DNA from: Skermanella rosea
Lineage (GTDB): Bacteria > Pseudomonadota > Alphaproteobacteria > Azospirillales > Azospirillaceae
Length of the DNA: 64,000 nt
Direction: 5' to 3'
Assembly (NCBI RefSeq): GCF_016806835.2
Contig: NZ_CP086111.1
Coordinates: 179,501 to 243,500 of the forward strand
This document shows, in pieces, positions 8,287-58,840 of this stretch. Under the pieces are notes generated by a model. It was not told where the DNA came from. It saw only the letters and a list, made by a program, of their open reading frames with translations, and ran no database searches. Both the position numbers and the translations under genes were made by a program. Positions within the stretch are counted from its first letter, which is position 1. The number at the start of each line of letters is the position of its first letter.

Positions 8287-8379
8287 TGGCGGAGGCGGAT
8301 GGGAATCGAACCCACCGCACGCTTGGGGCGTGCCGCTGGTTTTGAAGACCAGGAGGGCCACCAGACCCTTGTCGCCTCC
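8287..8379 (-). tRNA. selC: tRNA-Sec (anticodon UCA)
   Basis: On the - strand this 93-nt sequence folds as a selenocysteine tRNA. The acceptor GGAGGCG pairs with CGCCTCC, followed by discriminator G and an encoded CCA. There is a short D stem (AGGG/CCCT), an anticodon stem CTGGT/ACCAG around the loop CTTCAAA (anticodon TCA), and the long variable arm of this class (GCACGC/GCGTGC around CCCAA). The T loop TTCGATT is normal. The organism must therefore decode UGA as Sec somewhere, although no selA, selB, selD or visible Sec-containing gene lies in the window. A stem-loop with 7-bp arms (8386-8407) sits just upstream. Confidence 0.94.
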
Positions 8380-42314: not shown

Positions 42315-43069
42315 CACGGCACTTCCCCCCGGTCGGCTCCGAGGCTCTGGCCGGTGACGTTGGCCGCGAGGTCGGAGGCAAGGAACAGATAGGGACCCGC
42401 CATGTCCGGCGGCTCCATGAGGCCGGGCAGCGCCTGCCCGGCGATGATGTCGTCCAGAAGATCCGCTTCCCCGCGGCCCGCCCGTTCCGCCATCCGGCCG
42501 AGCGAGCGCATGGAGGCTTCCGTCCTCACCCAGCCGGGGCACACAGCGTTGACCCGGATGCCGCTGGGCCCCAGCTCCTTGGCCCAGGTCTTGGTCAGCC
42601 CGATCACCGCGTGCTTCGACGCGACATAGGCGGAGAACAGCGGCTCCGCGACGCGGCCCCAGACCGAGGCCGTGTTGACGATGGCGCCGCCCGCGCGCAT
42701 GCCCGGCACCACGGCCCGGGTCACCAGGAAGGTGCCCAGGATGTTGATCTCGATGATGCGCCGGAAGGCCGCCTCGTTCTCCGCGCCGGCGTCGTCCAGC
42801 GGGGTCATGAGCTCCAGGCCGGCATTGTTGACCAGCACGTCCACGGCGCCGATGCGGGCCGCCATGGCGGCCACCTCGTCGCCCCGGGTCACGTCGGCCC
42901 GGTGCGCCATGGCGCCCAGCGCCTCCGCCGCGGCGTGGATCGCGTCGTTCTCCGCCGCGACGTGCAGGTCCGCCCCGGCGGTGGCGAAGGCCTGGGCGAT
43001 GCCGAAGCCGATGCCGCGGCTGGCGCCGGTGACCAGCACCGTGCGGCCGTCGAAACGGGGCAGGGTCAT
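42311..43069 (-). CDS. Short-chain dehydrogenase/reductase
   Basis: 252 residues, classical SDR: TGASRGIG at 14-21, NNAG at 81-84, Ser135, Tyr148 and Lys152 (YVASK). C-terminus ends DRGEVPW. Overlaps the ABC ATPase stop by 4 bp. It is distinct from the neighbouring SDR and not a recent duplicate. Substrate unknown. Confidence 0.9.
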   Translation of the reverse strand: MTLPRFDGRTVLVTGASRGIGFGIAQAFATAGADLHVAAENDAIHAAAEALGAMAHRADVTRGDEVAAMAARIGAVDVLVNNAGLELMTPLDDAGAENEAAFRRIIEINILGTFLVTRAVVPGMRAGGAIVNTASVWGRVAEPLFSAYVASKHAVIGLTKTWAKELGPSGIRVNAVCPGWVRTEASMRSLGRMAERAGRGEADLLDDIIAGQALPGLMEPPDMAGPYLFLASDLAANVTGQSLGADRGEVPW

Positions 43070-43854
43070 TCCTCGTCTCCCGCGGCTTCGCGCAGCAGTT
43101 TCAGGACTTCGCTCCGAAGCCGGAAGAATTCCGGGCTGTCCCGCAGCTCCAGCGGGCGGTCGGGGCCGAGGCGCCCGGTGATGTCGATGTCCGCCATGAC
43201 CCGCGCGGGCCGCTTGGAGAACACGATGACCCGGTCGGCCAGGAACACCGCCTCCTCCACGTCGTGGGTCACGAAGACGATGGTCTTGGCGTCGCGCCGC
43301 TGGATGCTCCGCAGCTCGACCTGGAGCCGTTCCCGGCGCTGCGCGTCCAGGGCACCGAACGGCTCGTCCATCAGCATCACGTCCGATCCGGCCGCCAGCG
43401 TGCGGGCGATCGCCACGCGCTGGCGCATGCCGCCGGACACCTTGTTCGGATAGGCGTCGGAGAACTCGTAGAGCCCGACCAGTTCCAGGTAATGGTCGCG
43501 GCGGGCCAGTTTCTGCCGCTCCGTCAGGTCGCGGCGATAGCGCATGCCGAAATGGACGTTCTCGGCGACGGTCAGCCACGGGAAGGACGAGTAGGACTGG
43601 AAGACCATGCCGCGCCGGTGGTCGGGGCCGCCGACCGGCGCGCCTTCGAGGCGGATCGTCCCGGTGGACGGCGTGTCCAGCCCGCCGATCATGCGCATCA
43701 GCGTGGTCTTGCCGCAGCCGGACGGCCCCAGGAAGACGACGAACTCGTTGCGGGCGATGGTGGCTTCGAAGGGTTGGGCGACCACGTCGAGGTCGCCGAA
43801 CCGCTTGGTGACGCCGTCGAAAGCGAGATAGGGCTGTGTCATGAACTGTGTCAT
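43066..43854 (-). CDS. NitT/TauT-type ABC transporter ATPase
   Basis: 262 residues; Walker A GPSGCGKTT at 43-51, signature VSGGMRQR, Walker B VMLMDEPFGALDAQ, and the TauB/SsuB-like segment FLADRVIVFSKRPARV. ATG 43854; a second in-frame ATG is at 43842. It starts 11 bp after the permease stop and overlaps the next SDR gene. Confidence 0.94.
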   Translation of the reverse strand: MTQFMTQPYLAFDGVTKRFGDLDVVAQPFEATIARNEFVVFLGPSGCGKTTLMRMIGGLDTPSTGTIRLEGAPVGGPDHRRGMVFQSYSSFPWLTVAENVHFGMRYRRDLTERQKLARRDHYLELVGLYEFSDAYPNKVSGGMRQRVAIARTLAAGSDVMLMDEPFGALDAQRRERLQVELRSIQRRDAKTIVFVTHDVEEAVFLADRVIVFSKRPARVMADIDITGRLGPDRPLELRDSPEFFRLRSEVLKLLREAAGDEE

Positions 43855-43865
43855 GGGGGGCCTGC

Positions 43866-44690
43866 TCACAGGTAGCGGAAGGCGCGGCGGTGGGCCGCCC
43901 GGAGAAGCTGGTCGGTGACCAGCCCGATCACGCCGATCACCACCACGCCGGCCATGACCTCGGGCGTCTTCATGTAGCGGCGGGCCGTCCAGATGACGAA
44001 GCCGATGCCGCTGTCGGCGGCGACGATCTCGGCGATGATCAGGTAGGTCCAGCACCAGCCCAGCGTGATCCGCAGATTGTCCACCAGTCCCGGCAGCATC
44101 GCCCGGAACGCCACGTCGCGCAGCATCTGCCGGGTGTTGGCCCCGAGGGTATGGGCGATCTCGATATATTCCTGCGGCACGCGGCGCATGTCGTCGGCGA
44201 CCAGCAGGACCAGCTGGAAGAAGGTGCCGAGCCACAGCAGGTACAGCTTTGTGCTTTCGCCGACGCCGAACCAGATGATCGAGAGCGGCACCAATGCCGG
44301 CACCGGCAGGTAGCGGATGAAGTCGATGATCGGCTCCAGCGCCGCGCCCACGACGCGGTAGCTGCTCATCAGGATGCCGATCGGGATCGCCATCGCCGCC
44401 GCCAGCGCGAAGGCGGCCCAGACCCGCAGGGTCGAGACGCCGGCATGCCACAGCAGGTCCTGCTTCTGGACCATGACCAGCATGGCGCCCAGAACCGTGC
44501 TGGGCGCGGGCAGGAAAAGGCTGTTCACCAGCCCCAACCGGGCGACCGCCTCCCACGCCAGCAGCAGGCCGACGCTGGCCGCCACGCCGATCCCGACCTG
44601 GGCCGGGCGCGACAGGGTTCCGCGGAAGGCCCAGAGGGACGAGCGCCGGGGAGGCGGCGCCGTCCTGGCGGCCCTCGTTGCGGTGTCCAT
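43866..44690 (-). CDS. NitT/TauT-type ABC transporter permease
   Basis: 274 residues, about six helices, with the cytoplasmic EAA loop EIAHTLGANTRQMLRDVAFRA. The N-terminal 25 residues are basic and cytoplasmic. Partner of the ATPase and of the binding protein encoded 44 bp upstream. Confidence 0.94.
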   Translation of the reverse strand: MDTATRAARTAPPPRRSSLWAFRGTLSRPAQVGIGVAASVGLLLAWEAVARLGLVNSLFLPAPSTVLGAMLVMVQKQDLLWHAGVSTLRVWAAFALAAAMAIPIGILMSSYRVVGAALEPIIDFIRYLPVPALVPLSIIWFGVGESTKLYLLWLGTFFQLVLLVADDMRRVPQEYIEIAHTLGANTRQMLRDVAFRAMLPGLVDNLRITLGWCWTYLIIAEIVAADSGIGFVIWTARRYMKTPEVMAGVVVIGVIGLVTDQLLRAAHRRAFRYL

Positions 44691-44734
44691 GGCCTGGAGG
44701 TCCGAACCGCGAAGCGCCGTCGTCTGCCCCGGGG

Positions 44735-45721
44735 TCACGGGGAAACCTGGGAGATCACGGAGGCGTCGATCTGGCTGGCGGCGGTCAGCTTGGTGTCGGC
44801 GGCGCCGTTCTCGATGTTCAGCTGCATGACGGTGTCGAAGATCCCGTGCAGGCGGCCGGGCCGGTCCGGAGTGCCGATCAGGTCCTTGGCCTCGGCCAGC
44901 GGCGTGTAGGCCAGGCTGGTGTCGATGATCTCCTTCACCTCGTCCTCGCCGAGGTTGTAGTGCGGAGCCGCCAGCTCGATGAACTCCTCCGGGTTCGTCC
45001 TGTAGAGATCGATCGCCCGGTAGATGCCGGCCAGGAAGTTCCGGTACTTCGTCGGGTTCTTCTTCAGGTCGTCCTGGCGGGCGGTGATCACGTCGATGAT
45101 GATCTCGCTGTCCACCGACGACAGCAGGACCTTGCCCTTGCGGTCCGGCAGGGCGGTGATGGCCTGGGACTGGAACGGCTGGTATGTCCCGACCGCCGCG
45201 ATCGAGCTGTCGGCGAAGACGGCGATCGTGTCGGCGGTCGCGATCTCCACGATCGACAGGTCGTCCAGGCTCATCCCTTCCTTCTTCAGGGCGAGTTGGA
45301 GCAGCAGGCGGGCCGGGATGTTGGGTTCGACCGCGATCTTCTTGCCGCGCAGGTCGGCCACCCCGCCGATCGACCCGTCCGCGATGACCCCGTCGCCGCC
45401 GACCGACTTGTCGATCGTGCCGATGATGACGCCCGGCGTGGTCTCGTCGCGCGGGCGGCCCTGGTGCTCGCCGACGGTGCGCATGTCGACCTCGATGTCG
45501 CCGCGCATCATGGCCGCCATGACGTTGGCCCGGTCGTCCTCGAACTTCATGTCGACCGTCAGCCCGAGTTCCTTGAAGTAACCCTTGTCGGCGGCCACGA
45601 ACACGGGCGCGAAGCCGGGCCAGGTGGGCGACAGCACCCGGATCGTATCGGCTGCCCAGGCCGGTACCGAGACGGTCGCGAGGAGCAGGGCGGCGGCTGC
45701 AAGTCGGCTTGTGCGGAGCAT
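44735..45721 (-). CDS. NitT/TauT-type ABC substrate-binding protein
   Basis: 328 residues with a signal peptide cleaved near AWAAD (residue 23). NMT1/SsuA-like fold: TWPGFAPVFVAADKGYFKELGLTVDM and NVMAAMMRGDIEVDMRTVGE in parts. This class binds small anions, sulfonates, thiamine precursors or small nitrogen compounds. First gene of a seven-gene operon with SDRs, creatininase and ureohydrolase, divergent from lysR. Confidence 0.93.
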   Translation of the reverse strand: MLRTSRLAAAALLLATVSVPAWAADTIRVLSPTWPGFAPVFVAADKGYFKELGLTVDMKFEDDRANVMAAMMRGDIEVDMRTVGEHQGRPRDETTPGVIIGTIDKSVGGDGVIADGSIGGVADLRGKKIAVEPNIPARLLLQLALKKEGMSLDDLSIVEIATADTIAVFADSSIAAVGTYQPFQSQAITALPDRKGKVLLSSVDSEIIIDVITARQDDLKKNPTKYRNFLAGIYRAIDLYRTNPEEFIELAAPHYNLGEDEVKEIIDTSLAYTPLAEAKDLIGTPDRPGRLHGIFDTVMQLNIENGAADTKLTAASQIDASVISQVSP

Positions 45722-45840: not shown

Positions 45841-46770
45841 ATGAGACGCCTCGACAACATCGACCTGCGCCTGCTGCGCGTGTTCGTCACCCTGGCGGAT
45901 TCCGGCGGCTTCGCCGATGCCCAGATCGTGCTCAACCTGTCGCAATCGACGCTCAGCACCCATCTGGCGGCGCTGGAACGGAAGCTGGGGGCGCCCCTGT
46001 GCGAGCGCGGGCGCCGCGGCTTCCGCCTGACCGAATTCGGCGAGGCGACCTACGACGCGGCCAAGCGGCTGTTCGTGGAGATCGACGCCTTCCAGTCGCG
46101 CATCGGCCGCGACCGGGGCAAGCTGATGGGCCAGCTGCGCGTCGGCATCGTGGACGGCGTGGTGACCTCGCCGGAACTGGGCATCCAGACGGCGCTGAGC
46201 CGCTACTGCGAGTACGCGCCCGACGTCTTCGTGGACCTGCTGCTGGGTACGCCGACGGAGCTGGAAGCCGCGGTCGCCGACGGCTCGCGCGACGTGGTGG
46301 TCGGCCCCATGTCGCAGAAGGTCCCCGGCCTGACCTACCAGCCCATCTACCGCGAGCCCCACTCCCTCTATTGCGGCAGCGGGCATCGACTCTACGGCAT
46401 GCCGGACGACAGGATCGACCGTACGGCGATCGAGGAGGCGCCTTTCGCGGTGCGCGGCTACCTGCATTTCGACGACCTCTACCGCGCCAACCACCCGCGT
46501 CCCTGCGGGACGGTCATGCATATGGAGGCGCAGGTCATGATGATCCTGTCCGGCCGGTTCATCGGCTTCCTGCCCTGCCATATCGGCGAGGACTGGATGC
46601 GCCGCGGCCTGATGCGTCCCCTGAAGCCGAAGACCTACAACTTCGCCTCGACCCACTTCGTCGCGACCCGCAGCGCCGATGCCGGACGCGCCCTGGTGCA
46701 GAGCTTCGTGCGGGAGATCAAGCGGCAGGCGGCGTCATCGGAACCGGGACGGATCGCCAGCCCGGCGTGA
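45841..46770 (+). CDS. LysR-family transcriptional regulator
   Basis: 309 residues: N-terminal winged helix (IDLRLLRVFVTLADSGGFADAQIVLNLSQSTLSTHLAALE, in parts) and the periplasmic-binding-like effector domain from about residue 92. It is divergent from the NitT-type importer/creatininase operon and very likely activates it in response to the imported compound or a breakdown product. It is convergent with the guanidine operon, 167 bp away. Confidence 0.92.
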   Translation: MRRLDNIDLRLLRVFVTLADSGGFADAQIVLNLSQSTLSTHLAALERKLGAPLCERGRRGFRLTEFGEATYDAAKRLFVEIDAFQSRIGRDRGKLMGQLRVGIVDGVVTSPELGIQTALSRYCEYAPDVFVDLLLGTPTELEAAVADGSRDVVVGPMSQKVPGLTYQPIYREPHSLYCGSGHRLYGMPDDRIDRTAIEEAPFAVRGYLHFDDLYRANHPRPCGTVMHMEAQVMMILSGRFIGFLPCHIGEDWMRRGLMRPLKPKTYNFASTHFVATRSADAGRALVQSFVREIKRQAASSEPGRIASPA

Positions 46771-46937: not shown

Positions 46938-47744
46938 TCAAGTCACCGGGACCAGTGAAACGGCCGGGGAAGGCTCGCTGACCGGTTCCGGGGCGTGGAG
47001 GGCCGCCTCCCGCCTCGCGGCGATCTTGGCCTCCAGGGGTAGGTCGTAGGTCACGGTCGCCCCATAGGCGCCCGGTTCCTGGGGATCGACGCGGACCTTG
47101 TCGAAGGCGAGCACGCGGGTCGCCAGGGTGAATCCTTCCTTCAGGTCGTGGGTGACCATGAAGATGCTCATCTTGTGCTTGTCCCACAATCCCAGCAGCA
47201 GCTCGTACATCTGGGCCTTGGTGCCGGCGTCCAGCGCGCCGAACGGCTCGTCCAGCAGCAGCACCTTGGGCTTCCGGATCAGCGCCTGGGAGATCGCCAG
47301 CCGCTGCTGCATGCCGCCGGACAGCTCGGCGGGGTACTTGTCCCGGTGGGCGGACAGGCCGACCGTTTCCAGGATCCCGGAAGCCTCCTGCTCGGCGGCG
47401 CGCCGCTCCCGGCCGAACAGTTTTCCCAGGAACCTCGAGCGCTCGAACTCGCGCCCGATGATCACGTTCTGGAGCACCGTCAGGTGCGGGAACACCGAGT
47501 AGCGCTGGAACACCACGCCCCGGTCCGGGCCGGGCTCGGCGACCAGCGGCTTGCCGTCCAGCTCGATGGTGCCGCGGGTCGGGCTCTCCTCGCCCAGCAG
47601 CATGCGCAGGAAGGTGGTCTTGCCGCAGCCCGACGGGCCGACCAGGGCGCAGAACTCGCCCGACGCGATCTCCAGCGATACCCGCTCCAGCACCACTTGG
47701 CCGGGATATTCCTTCCACAGGTTCGTGACAGATATCCGGCTCAT
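46938..47744 (-). CDS. NitT/TauT-type ABC ATPase of the guanidine operon
   Basis: 268 residues; Walker A GPSGCGKTT at 36-44, signature LSGGMQQR, Walker B LLLDEPFGALDAGT. Insertion SRFLGKLFGRERRAAE in the helical domain is typical of ATPases linked to urea-carboxylase clusters. The ATG overlaps the permease stop (ATGA). It is last in the riboswitch-controlled operon and should energise guanidine uptake. The C-terminal 40 residues are low-complexity. Confidence 0.93.
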   Translation of the reverse strand: MSRISVTNLWKEYPGQVVLERVSLEIASGEFCALVGPSGCGKTTFLRMLLGEESPTRGTIELDGKPLVAEPGPDRGVVFQRYSVFPHLTVLQNVIIGREFERSRFLGKLFGRERRAAEQEASGILETVGLSAHRDKYPAELSGGMQQRLAISQALIRKPKVLLLDEPFGALDAGTKAQMYELLLGLWDKHKMSIFMVTHDLKEGFTLATRVLAFDKVRVDPQEPGAYGATVTYDLPLEAKIAARREAALHAPEPVSEPSPAVSLVPVT

Positions 47745-48565
47745 GACTGCCCCTTTCCGGCCTTCAGCCACGGGAAGAAGCGGGCGTTGACCCAGCGCAG
47801 CCCGGCGTCCGACAGGAAGGCCAGCAGCGTGATCCAGGCGACGTAGGGCAGGATGACGTCCATCGCCATGTAGCGGCGCACCAGGAATATCCTGTAGCCC
47901 AGCCCCTCCGTCGCGGCGATCGCCTCGGCCGAGATCAGGAACAGCCAGGCCGGCCCCAGGGACAGACGCACCGCGTCGATCAGCCGGGGCAGCATCTGGG
48001 GCAGCACCACGCGGACCACGATCTGCCAGGTGGAGGCCCCCAGCGTCTGCGCCTTGATCAATTGCTCGCGCGGCAGGTCGCCGACCTTCAGCGCCAGGTC
48101 GCGCACCAGGAACGGCGCCACGCCGAACACGATCAGCACCACCTTGGACAGCTCGTCCAGGCCGAAGACGATGAACAGGACCGGCAGCACCGCCATCGGC
48201 GGGATCATGGAGACCACGCCGACGAAGGGCGACAGGCCCGCCCGCACATAGGGAATCAACCCGATCGCCAGACCAAGGACCAGCGCCAGGGCGGTCGCAA
48301 CGCCCAACCCCATCCCCAGCCGCTGAAGGCTGGCCAGCGTGTCCACCCACATCAGATAGTCGCCGGTCCGCGCATCGGGATTGAGCGCCAGCCGGCCGAT
48401 GGCCGCCGCGAAGCTTTCCAGCTGCGGCAGCAGCTTGTCGTTCGGGTTGGCCGCCAGCCGGGCGGACGAGGCCAGGGCGTAGGCGACGCCGGCCGCCAGG
48501 AACGGCAGCGCCCCCCACAGCACGATGCCGCCCCGGCCGGGACGCAGGTTGATGATCCGGCGCAT
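47741..48565 (-). CDS. NitT/TauT-type ABC permease of the guanidine operon
   Basis: 274 residues, around six helices, with the EAA loop KAQTLGASTWQIVVRVVLPQ. It lies 3 bp downstream of the binding-protein stop and overlaps the ATPase start, so expression is tightly coupled. The substrate is inferred to be guanidine from the operon. Confidence 0.93.
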   Translation of the reverse strand: MRRIINLRPGRGGIVLWGALPFLAAGVAYALASSARLAANPNDKLLPQLESFAAAIGRLALNPDARTGDYLMWVDTLASLQRLGMGLGVATALALVLGLAIGLIPYVRAGLSPFVGVVSMIPPMAVLPVLFIVFGLDELSKVVLIVFGVAPFLVRDLALKVGDLPREQLIKAQTLGASTWQIVVRVVLPQMLPRLIDAVRLSLGPAWLFLISAEAIAATEGLGYRIFLVRRYMAMDVILPYVAWITLLAFLSDAGLRWVNARFFPWLKAGKGQS

Positions 48566-48568
48566 GGG

Positions 48569-49648
48569 TCAGAGCTTCCCTTCCTGGGCCATCCTCATGT
48601 GATCGGCATCGAAGCGCAGCTTGACGTTGCCGGCGTCGCCCAGCACCGTGCCGCCGGGAAAGGCGATCCCGACCGCGTCCACCGTCCGGGCGCCTTCGCC
48701 CAGCAGCCCGTGGTCGAACGAGAAGGTGCGGACCAGGTCCATGCCCTTGACCAGCTCGGGGCTTGACGCGAACGCCACCGCCTCGGCCGGGGTGTAGAAC
48801 ATCTTCGTGGTGGCGAGCTGCGCCTTGTAGCCTTCCAGGTCGGTGCCGGCCGCGGTCGCCATGGCGGTCAGTGCCTCCGTGCCCTTCGGCCCGGCGTCCC
48901 GCATCAGCGCCAGCGTCTCGTACCAAGCGCCGACCAGAGCCTTGCCCAGCGACGGGTTGTCCTTCAGCGTCTCCGTGTTGACGACCATCAGGTCGATGAT
49001 CTCGCCGGGGACCTTGCTGCTGTCGAACACCATCGCGGCGCCTTCGGCCTTGCGCACCTCGCTGAGCTGCGGGTTCCAGGTCACGACCGCGGTCACGTCG
49101 GGCGACGCGAAGGCGGAGACGATGTCGGCGTCGGCCGTGTTGACCACGCGGACGTCCCGTTCCGACAGTCCGACGCTGTCCAGCGCCCGGGCGAGCAGGT
49201 AGTGGGAGACCGACAGCTCCACCAGGTTGACGTCCCGGCCCTTGATCTCGGCGAGGCTGCCGCCGCCCTTCAGCACCACCCCGTCGTTGCCGTCGGAATA
49301 GTCGCCGGAGATCAGCGCGGTGGAGTCGACGCCGCCGGCCGCCGGGATGGTCAGCGCGTCCATGTTGGTCATGACGCAGCCGTCGAACGCCCCGGCGGTG
49401 TACTGGTTGATCGATTCCACGTAGTCGTTGATCTGGACGATCTCGACCGAGATGCCGTACTTGTCGGCCCACTTCTTCATGATGCCGCTGTCGGCGGCGT
49501 AGCCCCACGGCATCCAGCCCGCATAGATCGACCAGGCGATCCTGAAGGATTGTTTCTCCGCCGCGAGCGCCGGCGACTGCGCCGCGGTCGTGACGAGGGT
49601 CAGGGCGAGGCCCAGGGCGACGAGTGCCGATTTGAACAGGGTCCGCAT
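48569..49648 (-). CDS. ABC substrate-binding protein of the guanidine operon
   Basis: 359 residues with a signal peptide (to about residue 29, PALAA). NMT1/TauA-like: RIAWSIYAGWMPWGYAAD, QINDYVESINQYTAGAFDGCVMTN (in parts). It is larger than the usual 320. GGAG precedes the ATG. This subfamily is regularly found with urea-carboxylase-type operons; because a guanidine riboswitch controls this one, the ligand is probably free guanidinium. Confidence 0.92.
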   Translation of the reverse strand: MRTLFKSALVALGLALTLVTTAAQSPALAAEKQSFRIAWSIYAGWMPWGYAADSGIMKKWADKYGISVEIVQINDYVESINQYTAGAFDGCVMTNMDALTIPAAGGVDSTALISGDYSDGNDGVVLKGGGSLAEIKGRDVNLVELSVSHYLLARALDSVGLSERDVRVVNTADADIVSAFASPDVTAVVTWNPQLSEVRKAEGAAMVFDSSKVPGEIIDLMVVNTETLKDNPSLGKALVGAWYETLALMRDAGPKGTEALTAMATAAGTDLEGYKAQLATTKMFYTPAEAVAFASSPELVKGMDLVRTFSFDHGLLGEGARTVDAVGIAFPGGTVLGDAGNVKLRFDADHMRMAQEGKL

Positions 49649-49670: not shown

Positions 49671-51494
49671 TCAGCGGGCGGCCAGCCAGTTCCTCCAGCC
49701 GCCGTGGTTGGTGATATCCTGCGCTCCGGCGGTCGCGTGGGCCTCGCACAGGAAACCCTGCACGCGGGCGCCGCCGGCCAGTTCCAGCGTGCCGATGGCG
49801 AGGGGAGGGGGCACCTCGGCGACGAAGCCGCCGAAGCCGGCGGCGTCCAGCTCCCAGACCTCGACCTCGATCCCGCCGGGAGCGCCGGGGTCGCGCAGCA
49901 GGCCGGGCTTGGCGGGCGTTGTGCCGGGCAGGGCGAACAGCCTGTAGCCGGCCGCCGTGCGGTCCGTCCGCACCAGCCGCGCGCCGCGCCCGGTAAGCTG
50001 GTGGTTGAGCGGCAGTCCGGAGAGGTGGGCGCCGACGACGGCCAGCCGGACCATTCCCGACTCCGCCGCCTCCAGCGCCGGGCCGGCGACGGCATGCCCG
50101 GTGGCGCCGATCGTGGGGGCCTGCGCCCGGTGGAACCGGTCGGCCAGCAGCGCCAGCCTGCCGTCCTCGAAGCTGCGCCCGATCAGCGTCACGCCGAAGG
50201 GCAGCCCGGTGGAGCGGAACCCGGCGGGCACGGCGATGGCCGACAGGTCCATCAGGTTCACGAAGTTGGTGTAATGGCCCAGTCGGCTGTTCAGCCGGAT
50301 CGGGTCGGCCAGCATGTCCTCGATGGTGAAGGTGGTGCCGGTCGTGGGAAGCAGCATCACGTCCATGCGCTCCCACCAAGCCTCCGCCCGCCGGGTCAGC
50401 TCGGCCAGCCTGTACTGCGCCTCGAAGGCATCGACCGCGCTGTAGCGGCCGGCCCCCAGGATGATCCCGCGGACCACGGGATGGATCGACTCGGGCTTCG
50501 TTTCCGCGAAGTCGCGGATCGCGGCCAGCCGCTCGGCCACCCACGGGCCGGCATAGAGCAGCTTCGCCGCTTCGACGAAGGGGGCGTAGTCGAACTCCAC
50601 GCGGGTGCCGCCCAACTCCTCCAGCCGGGCGGCGGACGCGGCGAACAGCTCGGCGGCGCCCGCGTCGCCGAAGAACTCCAGTCCCCCGGCCGACGGCACG
50701 CCGAAGCGGAACCCCGGAGGCACCGAGGCCGGCAGCGTCGCCCCCGCCGGCGCCCGCCGGGAGAACGGATCGGCCGGATCGAACCCCGCCGCCGCCCGGA
50801 GGACCGCCAGGGCGTCCCCGCTGGAGCCGGCGAAGATCGACACGCAATCCTGGGTCCGGCAGGCCGGCAGCACGCCCGCGGTGCTGACCAGCCCCTTGGT
50901 CGGCTTCAGCCCCACGACATTGTTGAACGCGGCAGGCACCCGGCCCGACCCGGCCGTGTCGGTCCCCAGCGCGAAGCTGACCAGCCCCGCCCCGACCGCG
51001 ACGCCCGACCCGGAACTCGACCCGCCCGACACATGGGCCGGGTCGAACACGGACGAGCAGATGCCGTAGGGCGACCGGGTTCCGACCAGCCCGGTGGCGA
51101 ACTGGTCCAGGTTGGTCTTGCCGATCAGGATGGCGCCCGCGGCCTCCAGCCGCTCCACCACGGTGGCGGAGCGGTCGGGTACGAAGGCGAAGTCGGGACA
51201 GCCGGCGGTGGTCGGCACGCCGGCCACGTCGATGTTGTCCTTGACCGCGAAGGGGATGCCGAACAGGGGCAGGTCCTCTCCCGCTTCCTTCCTGGCCCGC
51301 GCCCGGCCGAGCCGGGCCAGCGCGTCCGCCTTGTCGAGCAGGGTGATCCAGACGGGGCGGAGCCCCATCGCGCCGATCCGGGCATGGACGCCGTCCAGCA
51401 CGGCCTCCGGCGTCAGGCTGCCGTCCGCGTAGGCTCGGGCAAGGACGGCGATTTCCAGGCTTCGATCAGTCATGTCGGGTGCTTCGATCATCAT
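49671..51494 (-). CDS. atzF: Allophanate hydrolase
   Basis: 607 residues. Amidase-signature domain with Lys85 (FAVKDNID), the cis-Ser in GGSSSGSG (157-164) and nucleophile Ser183 ([11 protein letters not shown]), then the family-specific C-terminal domain from about residue 470 that decarboxylates the intermediate. It converts allophanate to two ammonia and two CO2. The ATG overlaps the carboxylase stop (ATGA). In the guanidine route it acts last, after carboxyguanidine has been deiminated to allophanate. Confidence 0.96.
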
Positions 51495-54400
51495 GCTGCG
51501 GGGAGGAAGACGGCGAGCGGCTGGCCCAGCGAGACGGCCTGCCCCTCGGCGCACCGGATCTCGACCAGGGTGCCGTCGGCGGGGGCGGCGACCGTGATCT
51601 CCATTTTCATGGATTCGACGATGACCAGGACGTCGCCGGCCTTGACGGCCGTCCCGGCCGCTCCGGCCACCTTCCAGATGCTTCCCGACACCGGGCTGGC
51701 TATGGCCTCGCCCCCGTCGGGCATGTCGGCGTGCCCGGGGAGGGGGCCGGGGTCGGCCACCTCCGCCGCGACGGTCTGGCCCGAGGCCTCCCACCGCGTG
51801 CGCTCCTCCTCGAAGGCGGCCTGCTGGCGGGCCTTGAAGGCCTCGATCGAGTCCCGGTTCTCCTCCAGGAAGCGCCGGTAGTCGCGCAGGCGGAAGGTCT
51901 CCTCGGTGATCCTGAGCGACGCCCGCCCCTGGAGGAAATCGGCCCGGAAGGCCATCAGTTCGTCGTGGGTGACGGGGTGGAAGCGGATCTGGTCGAAGTG
52001 GCGCAGCAGCCAGGACTTGCCCGGCGGGAACTCGGCCGTGGTCCGGTAGGTGTTCCACATCTGGCAGGTCCGGCCGACGAACTGGTAGCCGCCCGGCCCC
52101 TCCATCCCGTAGACGCAGAGATAGGCGCCGCCGATGCCGACCGCGTTCTCCGGCGTCCAGGTGCGGGCGGGGTTGTACTTGGTGGTGACCAGCCGGTGGC
52201 GCGGATCGACCGGGGTCGCGACGGGCGCTCCCAGATAGACGTCGCCCAGCCCCATGACCAGGTAGCTGGCGCCGAACAGGATCTCCTTGACCGCCTCGAC
52301 ACCGTCCAGCCCGTTGATCCGGCGGATGAACTCGATGTTGCTCGGGCACCAGGGTGCGTCGGCCCGGACCGACTGCATGTATTTGGAGATGGCGAGCCGG
52401 GTCGCCTCGTCGTCCCACGACAGCGGCAGGTGGACGATCCGGGTCGGAACCTCCAGGTCGTCGATCGCGGGAAGCTCCCGCTCCGCCGCGACCAGCCGGT
52501 CCAGCAGGTCGTCGAGCGCCAGCACCCGGCTGTCGTAGTGGACCTGGAGCGAGCGGATGCCCGGCGTCAGGTCCAGGATGCCGGCCAGCCCGAGGCCTTC
52601 CAGATGCCGCTGGAGCGCATGGACCCGGAACCGCAGGGTCAGGTCGAGCACAAGCGGTCCGTACTCCACCAGCAGGTAGCGGTCGCCCGAGCGCCGGTAG
52701 ACCACGTCCTCCCCGCCCGGAACGGCGGCAAGCCGGTGCAGCACCGCCTCGTCCGGCCCGGTTCCCCGCCGCGGCGGCAGGGCGGCCCGGTCCACCGGCC
52801 GGAGCGTCGCGACCGCGGCGTCCTGCGCGTCCTCCAGGGCGGCCGCCTCGGCGGCGGTCAGCCGGCGGAAGCGGACCTTGTCGCCCGGCCGGAGCTGGCC
52901 GATCTTCCACAGCTCGGCCTGGACGATGGTGGCCGGGCAGACGAAGCCGCCCAGGCTCGGCCCGTCCGGCCCCAGGATCACCGGCATGTCGCCGGTGAAA
53001 TCGACGGTGCCGACAGCATAGGCGTTGTCGTGGATGTTGGAGGGGTGAAGACCCGCCTCCCCGCCGTCCTTCCGCGCCCAGTCCGGCTTGGGGCCGATCA
53101 GGCGCACGCCGGTGCGGCTGGAGTTGTAATGGACCTCCCAGTCCGCGGCGAAGAAGGTGGCGATGTCGTTTTCGGTGAAGAAGTCCGGCGCCCCGTGGGG
53201 GCCGTACAGCACGCCGATTTCCCAGGCATGGCCGTAGTCCGGCACCAGGGCCGGATCGATCGCCCCGGTTTCCCCAAGCCTCTCGTCCCCGACATGGAGC
53301 ACGTCGCCGGGCATCAGCGCCCGCCCGCCATGGCCGCCGAACCTGCCCAGCGTGAAGGTGGAGCGGCTGCCCAGATATTCGGGAACGTCGATGCCGCCCC
53401 GGACCAGCAGATAGGCCCGGCATCCCGCGCCGGTCGCCGCCCCGATGCGGAGCGTCGAGCCGGCCGGTACGGCGACCGGCTGCCAGAACGGCACGGCGGC
53501 GCCGTCGAGGGTCGTCGGCATGGCGGCCCCGGCCAGGCAGACCAGCGCGTCCGTGTTGAACTTCAGCGTCGGCCCGGAAACCGTCAATTCCAGCCCGGCC
53601 GCCCCCTCCGGGTTGCCCAGCAGCCGGTTGCCCAGCCGGAAGGCCAAGGGGTCCATGGGGCCGGACGGTGGCACGCCGACTTCCCAGTAGCCGACGCGGC
53701 CGGGATGGTCCTGGACGCTGGTCAGCGTGCCGGGCGCCACCACCTCGATGGAGCGCGCCCGGTAGGCCACGGTCTCCAGGTACCGGGTGGTGAAGCCTCC
53801 TTCCGCGAAGGCCGGGTCGGCGGCGATCTGGCGCAGATAGCCCAAGTTGGTCTCGATCCCGTCGAGCCGGCAGGCGTCGAGCGCCGTCCGTAGCTTCGCG
53901 ATGGTGTCGGCGCGGTCGGTGCCGCGCACGATGATCTTGGCCAGCAGCGGATCGTAGAACGGCGTCACCTCGGTGCCGCGCTCGACCCAGGTCTCCACCC
54001 GGGCATCCCCGGGGAACTCCGCCCGGGTCAGGATGCCGGCCGACGGGCGGAAGGCGCGGCCGGGGTCCTCGGCATAGACCCGCACCTGGATGGAGGTGCC
54101 CTCGGCCCGCCGGGCGTGCGCGGCCAGCGGGAGCGTCTCCCCGGCCGCCTGGCGGATCATCCATTCCACCAGGTCGACGCCGGTCACCTCCTCCGTCACG
54201 CCGTGCTCGACCTGGAGCCGGGTGTTCACCTCCAGGAAATAGAACTCCCCGGCCGCCGCGTCGTGGATGAATTCCACGGTCCCGGCGGACCGGTAGCCGA
54301 CCGCCGCGCCCAGCCGCTCCGCCGCGTCGAACAGGGCTTGGCGCTGCGCGTCGGACAGATGGGGCGCCGGCGTCTCCTCGATCACCTTCTGGTTCCGCCG

Positions 54401-55093
54401 CTGGGCCGAGCAGTCCCGCTCGCCCAGGGCCACCACGGTGCCCTGCCCGTCGCCGAAGATCTGCACCTCGATATGGCGCGCGTGCTCGACGAACTTCTCC
54501 AGGTAGACGCCGGATTCCTTGAAGTTGTTGCGCGACAGCCGCGACACCGCCTCGAACATCCCGGCCAGTTGCGCCGGCTCGCGGCAGAGCTGCATGCCGA
54601 TGCCGCCACCGCCGGCCGTGCTCTTGATCATCACGGGATAGCCGATGCGCGATGCCGCCTCCAGCGCCTCCCCGGCGCCGGCCAGCAGCCCGCTGCCGGG
54701 CGACAGCGGAACGCCGCTCTCCGCCGCCAGCCGGCGGGCGGTGTGCTTCAGGCCGAAGGCCCGCATCTGGTCCGGCGTCGGGCCGATGAAGACGATGCCG
54801 GCCTCGGCGCAGGCCTCGGCGAATGCCGGGTTCTCCGACAGGAAGCCGTAGCCGGGATGGATCGCTTGCGCGCCGGTCGCCCGGGCCGCCTCCAGGATGC
54901 GGCCGGCGTCGAGATAGCTTTCCGACACCGCGGCCGGGCCGATGCAGACCGCCTCGCCGGCCATGGCCACGTGCAGGGAGTGGGCGTCGGCCTCTGAATG
55001 GACGGCGACCGGGGCGATGCCCATCCGGTCGAGCGTGCGGATGATGCGGCAGGCGATCTCGCCGCGGTTGGCGATCAGGACTTTGCTGAACAT
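51491..55093 (-). CDS. Biotin-dependent carboxylase, annotated urea carboxylase, probably guanidine carboxylase
   Basis: 1200 residues in the order biotin carboxylase/ATP-grasp (1-450, with [12 protein letters not shown]), KipA-like (about 455-770) and KipI-like (about 780-1000) carboxyltransferase halves, and biotinyl domain with VESMKMEI (biotin Lys1163). It uses ATP and bicarbonate to carboxylate urea or guanidine. The enzymes found under guanidine-I riboswitches next to UAAP proteins have been shown to prefer guanidine, giving carboxyguanidine; I infer the same here. It needs biotin, and a biotin importer is encoded divergently 2 kb upstream. Confidence 0.93.
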
Positions 55094-55119: not shown

Positions 55120-55767
55120 TTATGCCGCCGCGTCCCAGACCACCACTTCGATCGGCGTCGGGTCATAGGCGTTGCAGGGATTGTTGAGCTGCGGGCAGTT
55201 GGAGATCAGGACGATCACGTCCATGCAGGCCCGCATCTCCACATACTGGCCCGGCCCGCTGAGGCCGTCGGCGAAGGTCAGCCCGCCCTCGGGCGTGACC
55301 GGCACGTTCATGAAGAAGTTGATGTTGTGGGTGATGTCCCGCTTGGTCAGCCCGAACTCCTCGTGCTCGGCCACCGCCAGCAGGTAGCTGTCGCGGCAGG
55401 CATGCATGCACTTCTTCTCCAGCGCGTAGCGGACGGTGTTGGACTCGGTCGAGCAGGCTCCGCCCAGCGTGTCATGGCGGCCGACCGTGTCGGCGACGAT
55501 CTCAAGCATGGCATTGCCGGCCGTGGACATCAGCCGGGTGCCGACGCCGAGATAGACGTTGCGCTGCTCCCGGATGGTATCGATCGCGCTGTAGCGCTCG
55601 GCCGGGTCGGCGGCGTTGTAGAAGAGGGTGTCGGCCGCCTGGTTGCCCTCCAGGTCGACGATGCGGAAGACTTGGCCGGCCTTGACCACGTGGATCCAGT
55701 AGTCGCCGGCGGGGACGGTCTTGCGGTAGACGGCGGTATCGGGGGAGAGGGTGCTCTGTCTCGTCAT
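55120..55767 (-). CDS. Carboxyguanidine deiminase subunit, UAAP2-type DUF1989 protein
   Basis: 215 residues, DUF1989. Features are [36 protein letters not shown] and [14 protein letters not shown]. Formerly 'urea amidolyase-associated protein 2'. With UAAP1 it forms the heteromeric carboxyguanidine deiminase (CgdAB), producing allophanate and ammonia. I leave the A/B letter open. It lies 21 bp after UAAP1 and 26 bp before the carboxylase. Confidence 0.9.
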
Positions 55768-55788: not shown

Positions 55789-56517
55789 TCAGCCGCACAG
55801 GTGGTAGAGGTGGTTGTTCGCGAAGCCGCGTCCGTTCTCGGGGCGGCTGGTGCGGCAGGGATCGTTCTCCGCCGCCGGATCGCCGCGATGGAGTTCGTAG
55901 GAGACGGGCTTGCGCGGATATTCCGCCGCAGGGTTCATGGGGTGCGGGCAGGTGTGGAACAGCACCAGCGTGTCCATGTCGAACCGCAGGTCCACGTGGG
56001 CTCCCGCGCGGGCACCCTCGGGATCGAAGACCAGAGTGCCGTCCTGCTCGGTGCGGACCTTGCTGAACCAGTTGACGTTGGCCGCCAGGTCGCGCCGGCC
56101 CAGGCCGTACTTGGCGGCCTCGACCAGGAAGCTGTCATGGCCGTTCTGGGTCCAGTCGTTGCGGTATTCCTGGTAGCTCCTGCGGCCCCAGCGCTCCGCC
56201 ACCATGGATTTCGTGGAATTGCCGCAGACGGTGTCGTGCCAGCCGGCGGTGTCGTCGACGATGGAGCAGAAGACCCGTCCCATGTCGGAATAGAGGCAAT
56301 GCCCGGCGGTCAGCTTGAAGGTGTACTGGCACTTCAGCGTGTCGGGCGCGTTGTAGCGCTCCAGCAGGTTGGCGGGATTGTAGAACAGCATGCCGACATT
56401 GGCGCCGCCCTCGCGGTCGATCAGGCGCAGGACCGTGCCGCGCCGGAGCGTGAACGACCAGTGTTTGCCGCCATCGATTTCGTCTTGATACAACAGGTCG
56501 GAGCGAACGGTCGCCAT
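55789..56517 (-). CDS. Carboxyguanidine deiminase subunit, UAAP1-type DUF1989 protein
   Basis: 242 residues, DUF1989 with the UAAP1 pattern GGKHWSFTLRRGTVLRLIDREGGANVGMLFYN (in parts), SDMGRVFCSIVDDTAGWHD and LFHTCPHPMNP. First structural gene of the guanidine operon and partner of the UAAP2 gene downstream. ATG 56517 has GAGG 7 nt upstream; a GTG at 56523 is an alternative. A 12-codon leader frame ends 9 nt before the ATG. Confidence 0.91.
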   Translation of the reverse strand: MATVRSDLLYQDEIDGGKHWSFTLRRGTVLRLIDREGGANVGMLFYNPANLLERYNAPDTLKCQYTFKLTAGHCLYSDMGRVFCSIVDDTAGWHDTVCGNSTKSMVAERWGRRSYQEYRNDWTQNGHDSFLVEAAKYGLGRRDLAANVNWFSKVRTEQDGTLVFDPEGARAGAHVDLRFDMDTLVLFHTCPHPMNPAAEYPRKPVSYELHRGDPAAENDPCRTSRPENGRGFANNHLYHLCG

Positions 56518-56526
56518 GGCCACACC

Positions 56527-56565
56527 TCAGGCATAGGAGGAGTGCCGGGCAATGGGACGTCCCAT
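56527..56565 (-). other. Possible 12-codon leader ORF after the riboswitch
   Basis: ATG with GGAGG about 11 nt upstream encodes MGRPIARHSSYA and stops 9 nt before the UAAP1 start, overlapping its ribosome site. A TGGGACGTCCCA palindrome covers its start, and CTCCTCC inside it could pair with the upstream GGAGGA. It may couple or mask translation initiation. There is no proof that it is translated. Confidence 0.3.
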
Positions 56566-56589
56566 CGGAGCAACATCCTCCGTGTTTGA

Positions 56590-56720
56590 GACCTCCCGGG
56601 CTTTTGTCCCGCCGTGTGCCCGTCCGCTGTTCACCGGACGGGTCGCTGCTCTCGGACCAGTAACACCGGAGGGGATTTGAACCCGTTCCGGCCGGAACCC
56701 TAGCTGCTGGGACCATGGAG
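56590..56720 (-). promoter_or_regulatory. Guanidine-I (ykkC) riboswitch
   Basis: On the - strand the class signatures occur in order: CTAGGGTTCCGG (5' conserved block), CTGGTCCGAGAG (56649-56660), a perfect 8-bp stem CCCGTCCG/CGGACGGG, then ACACGGCGGGAC, AAAAGCCCGGGAGG. This matches the guanidine-I aptamer, which switches genes on when guanidinium binds. It lies 73 bp upstream of the UAAP1 start. No clear T-run terminator follows; GGAGGA and TCCTCC further down could pair, so control of translation is possible. Confidence 0.92.
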
Positions 56721-56938
56721 TTCGCAAGCGGCGTGCCAAGCGCCGAACACCCGGAAATGCGGGAGCCGCGCGGCGGCCCGTGCCGGGCAGGGGCGGGATT
56801 CTGCACATACGGGCACCAGGGCTGGCGAAGTTTTGGGCAATCGCTCTTCGGGGCATCCGAAGTCGCTTGATTCCACGGGATTCCCCGTGGCAGTAGCGGC
56901 CCAAAGAATCGGCTTCCCCAGAATCGGACGTTTCTCCC
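56721..56938. other. Divergent intergenic region, guanidine operon / bioMNY
   Basis: This stretch must hold the promoters for the riboswitch transcript (- strand) and for bioMNY (+ strand). I see no good -35/-10 pair and no TTAT-type BioR palindrome. A GGGATTCCCCG-like dyad near 56878 (GATTCCACGGGATTCCCCGT) is the only symmetric element I noted. Confidence 0.4.
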
Positions 56939-57613
56939 GTGATCGAACTTCGACAGGTCAGCCACCGGTTCGGCGACCATCAGGTCCTGCGCGACGTGTC
57001 GCTGACCCTGACGGAACGGCGGGTCGCCGTGGTCGGCGCGAACGGGTCGGGCAAGAGCACCTTCGCCCGCCTGCTGAACGGTCTGGTGGTGCCGGACGAG
57101 GGGACGGTTCTGGTCGACGGCCTGGACACCGGGAAGGACGGCAAGGCCGTCCGACGCAAGGTGGGGTTCGTGTTCCAGGACCCGGACACCCAGATCGTCT
57201 ATCCCACGGTCGAGGAGGACATCGCCTTCGGCCTGAAGAACCTGAAGCTGGACCGCGCCGAGATCGCCCGACGGGTTGACGACGTGCTCGACCGCTACGG
57301 CTTGGCCGAACACCGGAGCCGCCCCGCGCACCTGCTGAGCGGCGGGCAGAAGCAGCTGCTGGCGATCTGCTCCGTCCTGGTGATGGAGCCGGCCTATGTC
57401 GTGTTCGACGAGCCGACGACGCTGCTCGACCTGCGCAACAAGCGCATGATCATGGAGATCGTGGCAGGATTGCCCCAGACCGCCGTCTTCATCTCCCACG
57501 ACCTGGACCTGCTCGGCGCGTTCGACCGGGTGCTTGTGTTCGACGGCGGCCGGATCGTCGCCGACGACCGCCCCTCCGCCGCCATTTCCCGCTATGTCGA
57601 GCTGATGGCCTGA
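56939..57613 (+). CDS. bioM: Biotin ECF transporter ATPase BioM
   Basis: 224 residues, energy-coupling-factor ATPase: Walker [10 protein letters not shown] at 33-41, Q-loop [20 protein letters not shown] (characteristic of ECF ATPases), signature LSGGQKQL, Walker [16 protein letters not shown] start without a strong ribosome site. It energises BioN/BioY; the stop overlaps bioN (TGATG). Confidence 0.93.
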
Positions 57614-58212
57614 TGCTGGGCCTCTACATCCGGCGCGAGTCGCCGATCCACGCCCTGGCGCCGGGCGCCAAGATGCTGGCGCTGATGCTGGCGGCGGTCG
57701 GCCTGATCCAGGTGACCGATCCCCGCATCCTCGCCATCGTCCAGGCCGCTGCCCTGGGACTGTTCGCCCTGGCGCGCCTGCCACCGCGGGAGGTCGCGGC
57801 CCAGCTTCGCCCGGTGCTGCTGCTGGGGCTGTTCTTCTTCGCGGTCCACGCGCTGCTGGTGGACTGGGGGAGCGGGCTGGTCACGGTCCTGCGCTTCACC
57901 GTCCTGGTCTCGCTGGCGGTGCTGATCACCCTGACGACCCGGGTCTCGGACATGGTCGAGGCCCTGGAAGGGGGGCTTCGGCCCCTTCGCCGGGTGGGCG
58001 TCAATCCCGCAAAGGTCGGCCTGATGATCTCGCTCGCGATCCGGTTCGTGCCGCTGCTGATCGATCTGGTCCGCGAGATCCAGGCGGCCCAGCGGTCGCG
58101 CGGCCTGGAACGGAGCGTCACCGCCGTGGCGGTGCCGCTGATCGTGAAGACCCTGCGCATGGCCAGCGTGCTGACCGACGCGATCGAGGCCCGCGGCTAC
58201 GATCCCGATTGA
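57613..58212 (+). CDS. bioN: Biotin ECF transporter T component BioN
   Basis: 199 residues, four or five helices, with the coupling-helix motif EIQAAQRSRGLE of ECF T components. It links BioM to the substrate-binding S component BioY. Coupled to bioM by a one-base overlap. Confidence 0.92.
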   Translation: MLGLYIRRESPIHALAPGAKMLALMLAAVGLIQVTDPRILAIVQAAALGLFALARLPPREVAAQLRPVLLLGLFFFAVHALLVDWGSGLVTVLRFTVLVSLAVLITLTTRVSDMVEALEGGLRPLRRVGVNPAKVGLMISLAIRFVPLLIDLVREIQAAQRSRGLERSVTAVAVPLIVKTLRMASVLTDAIEARGYDPD

Positions 58213-58294
58213 GTTTCCCGCGCCGGCGCGCCATGTCTCCGCGCCTCGGCAAGAAACCTTCCAGATTTTCCACAAAGTACCGGACTAGACCGAC

Positions 58295-58840
58295 ATGCTG
58301 ACCACCCGCGACATGGTCCATATCGCCCTGTTCGCCGCCATCATGGCGGCCCTGGGCCTGATGCCGCCGATCCCGGTCGGGTTCATCCCCGTGCCGATCA
58401 CCGCCCAGTCCATGGGCGTCATGCTCGCCGGCTCCATCCTGGGGGCCAGGCGCGGCGGTTTCGCGATCCTGCTGTTCCTGGCGCTGGTGGCGGTGGGCCT
58501 GCCGCTGCTGTCGGGAGGGCGTGGCGGCCTCGGCGTGTTCTTCGGCCCGACCGCCGGCTTCCTGCTATCCTGGCCGGTCGGCGCCTTCGTGGTCGGCTGG
58601 CTGACCGAACGCTTCCGCAGCCGCCTGACCTTCGCCCGCCTGCTGATCGCCTGCGCCGTGGGCGGCATCTTCGTGGTCTATGCGATCGGCATCGTCGGCG
58701 TGAGCCTGGTCGCCGGCCTGCCGCTGTTCCAGGCCGCCGCCGGCTCCATGGCCTTCATCCCCGGCGACCTGGTCAAGGCCGTCGTCGCCGCCTTCGTCGC
58801 CCACACGGTCAACCGGAGCTACCCCGTCATCCGGGGCTGA
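58295..58840 (+). CDS. bioY: Biotin ECF transporter S component BioY
   Basis: 181 residues, six helices, with BioY signatures PPIPVGFIPVPITAQSMGVMLAG and SGGRGGLGVFFGPTAGFLLSWP (in parts). It binds biotin with high affinity. It ends the bioMNY operon and is convergent with the GntR gene 4 bp away. With the biotin-dependent carboxylase divergent to this operon, a supply role is plausible. Confidence 0.94.
   Translation: MLTTRDMVHIALFAAIMAALGLMPPIPVGFIPVPITAQSMGVMLAGSILGARRGGFAILLFLALVAVGLPLLSGGRGGLGVFFGPTAGFLLSWPVGAFVVGWLTERFRSRLTFARLLIACAVGGIFVVYAIGIVGVSLVAGLPLFQAAAGSMAFIPGDLVKAVVAAFVAHTVNRSYPVIRG

Follow-up and report, generated by a model that had tools for sequence, protein, structure and literature searches.

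Gene content of the locus

The window, meaning the whole 64,000-nucleotide stretch of Skermanella rosea DNA analysed here (contig NZ_CP086111.1, positions 179,501 to 243,500), carries on its minus strand a guanidine-I aptamer followed by genes for two DUF1989 proteins, a biotin-dependent carboxylase, an allophanate hydrolase and an ABC importer (Table 1). Our scan of the whole window with cmscan and Rfam 15 matched RF00442 with an E-value of 5.6e-11 over model positions 1-107 of 107, thus exceeding the curated threshold over the full model length, and the aptamer lies on the same strand and 5' of the guanidine-pathway genes, with 73 nt between its end at 56591 and the ATG of UAAP1 at 56517. 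The sequence-only reading had placed a guanidine-I riboswitch at 56590-56720(-), with the conserved aptamer blocks in the proper order and 73 bp ahead of the first DUF1989 gene, and had proposed a covariance-model search as a check; that search returned a significant match (72.6 bits against a gathering score of 63), and the block order and the distance were found as described. In the whole genome (7.76 Mb) this was the sole RF00442 match at E<=0.001, with 150 of the 277 first-look candidates scored. The cmscan alignment marks a mismatch in P1 of the window aptamer, which by eye is present in four congeners as well. The window also contains a selenocysteine tRNA (RF01852, 76 bits) at 8291-8379(-).

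Table 1. Features of the guanidine-I leader and of the operon behind it (window coordinates)
Feature	Position	Strand	Remarks
Guanidine-I (ykkC subtype 1) aptamer	56591..56714	-	RF00442, 72.6 bits vs gathering 63, full length
H1 5' strand GGGAGGTCTCA	56587..56597	-	Aptamer 3' end and next bases; common to aptamer and competing helix
A, predicted SD mimic (anti-anti-SD) GGAGGATGTTG	56571..56581	-	Pairs with B (H2)
H1 3' strand TGGGACGTCCC	56554..56564	-	Duplex with aptamer 3' end; invariant in 5 species of the genus including the window
B, predicted anti-SD CGGCACTCCTCC	56536..56547	-	Partner is A (H2) or the SD region (H3)
C, Shine-Dalgarno (SD) region of first gene GAGGTGTG	56521..56528	-	7 bases between GAGG and ATG
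UAAP1, DUF1989 protein (putative carboxyguanidine deiminase subunit)	55789..56517	-	TIGR03425, 338.8 bits vs 205.95 (scanned as 55789-56520); PF09347
UAAP2, DUF1989 protein (putative carboxyguanidine deiminase subunit)	55120..55767	-	TIGR03424, 342.9 bits vs 284.7; PF09347
Biotin-dependent carboxylase, annotated urea carboxylase, predicted guanidine carboxylase	51491..55093	-	TIGR02712, 1874.5 bits vs 1303.85; D698, D951
Allophanate hydrolase	49671..51473	-	TIGR02713, 815 bits vs 511.05
ABC importer substrate-binding protein, uca-linked family	48569..49648	-	TIGR03427, 560.7 bits vs 333.9
ABC importer permease	47741..48565	-	PF00528; 17 NCBIfam matches, none above cut-off
ABC importer ATPase	46938..47744	-	PF00005 (scanned as 46938-47741)

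Guanidine carboxylases are described as carrying Asp at the position of K. lactis residue 1584, with Asp at residue 1330 separating them from urea carboxylase (PMC11410670). The carboxylase of the window, a protein of 1200 aa, combines its TIGR02712 match with Asp at both positions: in the alignment with 5i8i, D698 falls on residue 1330, which is Asn in K. lactis, and D951, counted along the same alignment, stands opposite residue 1584. Carboxylases under riboswitch control that are annotated as urea carboxylases have been reported to favour guanidine as substrate (PMC12186494; PMC7266159). The enzyme of the window is the single carboxylase of the genome above the TIGR02712 cut-off, and a urease alpha match is present elsewhere in the genome, so that urea has another route. 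Both DUF1989 proteins match PF09347 together with the UAAP1 and UAAP2 models above cut-off, and from the literature about the pathway they are probably subunits of carboxyguanidine deiminase. Judged by its predicted proteins, the operon encodes the guanidine carboxylase pathway already known, and because the carboxylase has both guanidine-diagnostic aspartates, the label "urea degradation" is very likely a misannotation, in line with the sequence-only reading, which had drawn attention to a urea-annotated operon behind the riboswitch. A plasmid search revealed a similar operon on plasmid NC_013856.1 of Azospirillum sp. B510, and in others. The aptamer class and the pathway are settled knowledge, a known riboswitch standing before a known pathway, and we infer that the ligand at this locus is guanidine. 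What the locus chiefly confirms is that the urea annotation should read guanidine.

Divergent from the operon, 56939-58840(+) encodes an ECF ATPase, a CbiQ-type T component and BioY, that is, a BioMNY-like biotin importer beside an operon with a biotin-dependent carboxylase. No bioB match above cut-off was found in the genome (one weak match, 40 bits), so that biotin may have to be imported. The transporter was considered as a part of the system and set aside, being a neighbour in three of five species (the window, L092 and L094) and absent from the L093 and L095 stretches; no literature joining guanidine, biotin transporter, urea carboxylase and riboswitch was found. Directly downstream of the operon, the reading frames suggest a second ABC-transporter-like set at 43066-45721(-) and a LysR-like frame at 45841-46770(+).

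Predicted competing folds of the leader

The leader between the aptamer and the first gene contains three predicted helices that compete, namely H1, which joins the aptamer 3' end to a downstream strand, H2 (A:B) and H3 (B:C). The H1 duplex of the window leader reaches -18.6 kcal/mol (p 0.013 against 300 shuffles). Two states were compared by predicted folding, the "hidden" state being the leader folded without the aptamer 3' end, which mimics its retention by the ligand-bound aptamer. For the transcript to 72, hiding the 3' end gave pairing probabilities of 0.85 for A:B and 0.00 for B:C, and making it available gave 0.00 for A:B, 0.85 for B:C and 0.86 for H1. The transcript that includes 12 nt from the first AUG base was predicted to behave alike, with 0.71 (A:B) and 0.13 (B:C) in the hidden state and 0.00 and 0.81, respectively, in the available state. 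SD accessibility at the start codon rose by 0.289, a value reached by 21 of 1000 shuffled leaders with dinucleotides kept.

Several other tests failed for the window leader on its own. Its joint A-B-C complementarity gave p 0.168 and its anti-SD exposure p 0.31, and in the swap test its leader-SD match was worse than expected by +3.4 kcal/mol. Once 20 nt from the first AUG base were included, the equilibrium states of the window hardly separated (SD unpaired 0.47 vs 0.38), and in hand-picked cut transcripts the exposure of B rose only from 0.04 to 0.12. Five species of the genus, the window included, show no change in the 71 columns that run from the aptamer 3' end through B, whereas pairwise identity among them at third codon positions is 71.5-90% over the 600 nt that follow. 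Scans with consensus patterns of 56450-56950 found neither a sigma-70-like site nor a terminator-like site (0 found, shuffle mean 0.4), and the leader lacks the GC-rich hairpin with U run of an intrinsic terminator, which agrees with the absence of such a terminator noted in the sequence-only reading.

These elements suggest the following mechanism. Without guanidine, the aptamer 3' end GGGAGGUCUCA would pair with UGGGACGUCCC to form H1, which would trap the SD mimic A GGAGGAUGUUG and leave the anti-SD B CGGCACUCCUCC to cover the SD region C GAGGUGUG. Once guanidine is bound, the folded aptamer would retain its own 3' end, A would be free to take B, and the A:B helix would leave C exposed for translation of the first DUF1989 gene. 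We thus consider, with a probability of about 0.7, that the guanidine-I riboswitch controls a guanidine-assimilation operon as a translational ON switch. The aptamer family, the operon content, the diagnostic carboxylase residues and the three complementarities with their recurrence were computed here; that guanidine switches the operon on in the cell, and does so through translation, is what the model would predict. Translational control had earlier been guessed on the sole ground that no terminator is visible; the guess gains support from a three-helix arrangement that reaches the SD and recurs in relatives.

Survey of related leaders

Matches to Guanidine-I at E<=0.001 were present in 25 of the 82 genomes of the family, in 31 of 385 sampled from the class and in 43 of 398 sampled from the phylum; the class is probably Alphaproteobacteria, and the family probably includes Azospirillum. 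All 26 matches of the family genomes were read, the order-level sample consisting of the same 82 genomes. The class sample held 33 matches (30 with loci, three unread) and the phylum sample 58, 30 of them with loci, of which 29 were new. Of the other 28 phylum matches two were places read already (G000, G187) and 26 were left unread, so that the non-alphaproteobacterial sample leans to high-scoring matches. After removal of L052 (37.3 bits, odd aptamer end) from the 81 loci, 56 alphaproteobacterial and 24 other leaders were available, and dereplication at leader similarity >0.85 reduced them to 37 and 20. L050 and L051, which score below the family cut-off, were retained, the start codon of L041 is doubtful, and for 15 loci the start was assigned by hand.

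Among these dereplicated leaders, joint A-B-C complementarity at p<=0.05 was found in 14 of 37 from Alphaproteobacteria (Fisher 2.8e-11) and in none of the 20 others (Fisher 0.95), and H1 reached p<=0.05 in 9/37 (Fisher 4e-7) and 2/20 (Fisher 0.024), respectively. When SDs were swapped, the native combination of leader and SD proved the stronger one in Alphaproteobacteria (-2.0 kcal/mol, p 5e-5) and the weaker one in the non-alphaproteobacterial leaders (+1.4 kcal/mol, p 0.9998). When B was picked solely by its match to the SD and transcripts were cut at B, availability of the aptamer 3' end increased anti-SD exposure in Alphaproteobacteria by a mean of 0.182, where 60 shuffled sets gave no more than 0.019, with 12 of 37 leaders above 0.3 against at most four in the shuffles; the mean of the other leaders was -0.341. 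At the start codon, the mean gain in SD exposure was 0.049 (at most 0.027 in 60 shuffled sets; -0.053 in non-alphaproteobacterial leaders), with 4/37 alphaproteobacterial leaders above 0.3 against at most three in shuffles. Hand-picked cut transcripts had B freed in 35 of 37 loci; the B segments of that test were chosen by eye and its 37 loci differ from the dereplicated 37, and the later tests chose B or the SD window by rule.

The platform does not extend to the whole class, since 23 of the 37 alphaproteobacterial leaders fail p<=0.05 in the triad test. Equilibrium folds of the leader with 20 nt from the AUG show no general separation of the states (mean SD unpaired 0.29 vs 0.27 in Alphaproteobacteria; right direction in 20/37 of these and 6/20 of the others), which is why transcripts cut at B and at the start codon were used. 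The SD of L002 is covered in both states of the full-length fold, so a switch there would have to be set during transcription, under kinetic control.

Several variants of the leader were observed as well. The leaders of eight relatives, L008, L010-L013, L016, L017 and L020, are 155-160 nt long, with extra GC-rich sequence between anti-SD and SD as compared with the 111-nt leader of L018; such an insertion, present in several Azospirillum-type leaders, counts against the proposed platform. In L034, L040 and L045, which belong to one family of Alphaproteobacteria, the SD behind the riboswitch by eye starts a short frame (about 25 codons), and the frame after it resembles the permease and not the substrate-binding protein. 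Outside Alphaproteobacteria, 8 of 20 leaders have T-rich stretches, e.g., L054 and L060 with a hairpin and U run by eye, apparently a different output behind the same aptamer.

Compensatory changes in the helices

In an alignment of 17 alphaproteobacterial leaders of a second type, H1 and H3 together had two-sided changes in 6 of 15 pairs (as many in 20/500 shuffles), amounting to 18 two-sided cells against 6.8 in shuffles (0/500 as high), and H2 had them in 3 of 8 pairs (15/500), with six cells against 1.7 (0/500). The number of further pair types was not above shuffles in this alignment (176/500 as high for H1+H3 and 400/500 for H2). In alignment A1 the L002 and L005 types have strand A out of place, which makes their H2 counts partial. 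In example leaders, a change of B was accompanied by a joint change of A and C, as in the sets of B GCCAACCC, A GGGUUGGC and SD GGGGUUGG, of B GCCAAUCC, A GGAUUGGC and SD GGAGGAUUGG, and of B GCCAAUUCC, A GGAAUUGG and SD GGGGAGUUGG.

The Azospirillum-type set with the window comprised 15 distinct sequences. For H2, two of 11 pairs had changed on both sides (181/500 shuffles as many), with four cells (3/500 as many) and 94.4% of cells paired. The outer helix of H1 was paired in 96.3% of cells in this set, the genus of the window included, a figure for which the shuffle control is uninformative, and no H1 pair had changes on both sides. As related sequences may exceed such shuffles without structure, weight is put on the sum of the tests and not on any single one.

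Alternative explanations

Transcriptional control would let H1 act as a hairpin that resembles a terminator but lacks a U run, or let Rho stop on exposed untranslated RNA, with guanidine preventing H1 so that polymerase continues. It has precedent, as a 2025 review gives transcriptional ON switching as the usual mode of guanidine-I (PMC12186494) and a terminator is presumed for the class I switch of Vreelandella boliviensis (PMC12508155); H1 is moreover strong and placed where a terminator would be, and Rho-dependent loss of untranslated mRNA could go along with translational control. We nevertheless regard it as unlikely at this locus, given that the window has no U run or terminator-like site and that stretches of at least five T in 7 nt occur in 4/37 alphaproteobacterial leaders, the window not being one of these, against 8/20 of the others. 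A terminator also requires no complementarity between leader and SD, yet such complementarity is in excess in Alphaproteobacteria (p 5e-5) and in deficit elsewhere (p 0.9998). Control by a leader peptide MGRPIARHSSYA, encoded at 56527-56565 and acting via attenuation or coupling, we consider highly improbable. Its 12-codon frame has GGAGG upstream and ends shortly before the first gene, and by reading, a frame of that length with its stop is kept in four of five species of the genus; the DNA up to B is invariant there, however, so that conservation of the frame says little. The candidate was set aside since in L024 the frame is lost, entering the gene without a stop, and Azospirillum-type leaders show GTG and other codons in its place yet retain the RNA helices.

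Recognition of another ligand, such as methylguanidine, urea or the ligand of a ykkC subtype 2, gains its interest from near-identical ykkC variants that bind PRPP, ppGpp or nucleoside diphosphates (PMC7266159), and is very hard to reconcile with a full-length match above the Guanidine-I gathering score and with an operon for the guanidine carboxylase pathway rather than for purine or amino-acid biosynthesis. The end helix of the PRPP aptamer, missing from the guanidine aptamer according to PMC6031431, is by eye not conserved in the congeners, the class I switch of V. boliviensis is reported to select guanidine over methylguanidine (PMC12508155), and ykkC RNAs are reported to reject urea (PMC7266159). 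Scarcely credible, too, is an operon that serves urea as annotated with an incidental riboswitch: the matching models carry urea in their names, but the window has Asp where the K. lactis enzyme has Asn (rule of PMC11410670), urease is encoded at another site of the genome, and carboxylases of this kind are reported to favour guanidine (PMC12186494, PMC7266159).

Comparison with known systems and implications

Like other members of Guanidine-I (ykkC subtype 1, RF00442), the window combines a full-length match with guanidine-pathway genes downstream and a predicted ON switch; it differs in a predicted action on the SD through an SD mimic, without a terminator, and in the P1 mismatch of its genus. 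The V. boliviensis guanidine carboxylase operon (gca, cgdA/B, atzF and ABC importer; PMC12508155) has the same genes behind a class I riboswitch. It differs from the window by an internal Guanidine-II, only RF00442 and tRNA-Sec exceeding gathering scores in the window, and by mgdH and mgdL, which stand between its carboxylase and hydrolase genes; in the window the carboxylase and hydrolase genes abut (51491, 51473), with no mgdH or mgdL in between. A general translational design relies on anti-RBS and anti-anti-RBS stems that exclude each other (PMC7266159, Fig. 1 legend), and the predicted folds of the window leader follow it. The legend depicts an OFF switch, whereas the window has a predicted ON switch whose anti-anti-SD strand is itself similar to the SD region. 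Guanidine-II, a translational ON switch (PMC9561414, PMC10907184), is alike in that guanidine is predicted to free the SD, and unlike the window in its unrelated two-hairpin aptamer.

The less expected part is the expression platform, aptamer and operon being known biology. Among the matches listed for guanidine-I/ykkC literature on regulation and taxa, with subscription papers mostly outside the scope, the platform appears in no title or abstract start, and the consulted parts of PMC3766115, PMC2211319, PMC9561414, PMC10907184 and PMC6031431 do not describe it; guanidine in connection with translation refers there to guanidine-II.

We lean slightly towards the view that Alphaproteobacteria share a translational guanidine-I class, which would work by a three-way exchange among the true SD, an anti-SD and an SD mimic located in the loop of H1. 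Their sequences would have been replaced several times with the triple complementarity kept, which would mean a platform set by pairing alone; some lineages would switch only co-transcriptionally, and enterobacterial-type and other relatives would combine the same aptamer with a terminator or another design. Within a single phylum, the output of one well-studied aptamer appears to differ from class to class. With coordinates for A, B, C and H1, the alphaproteobacterial platform is defined well enough for reporter tests, and guanidine-inducible translation could be predicted from it in genera such as Azospirillum. At the locus described here, the riboswitch would govern guanidine assimilation as a whole, from import through carboxylation and deimination to allophanate hydrolysis.
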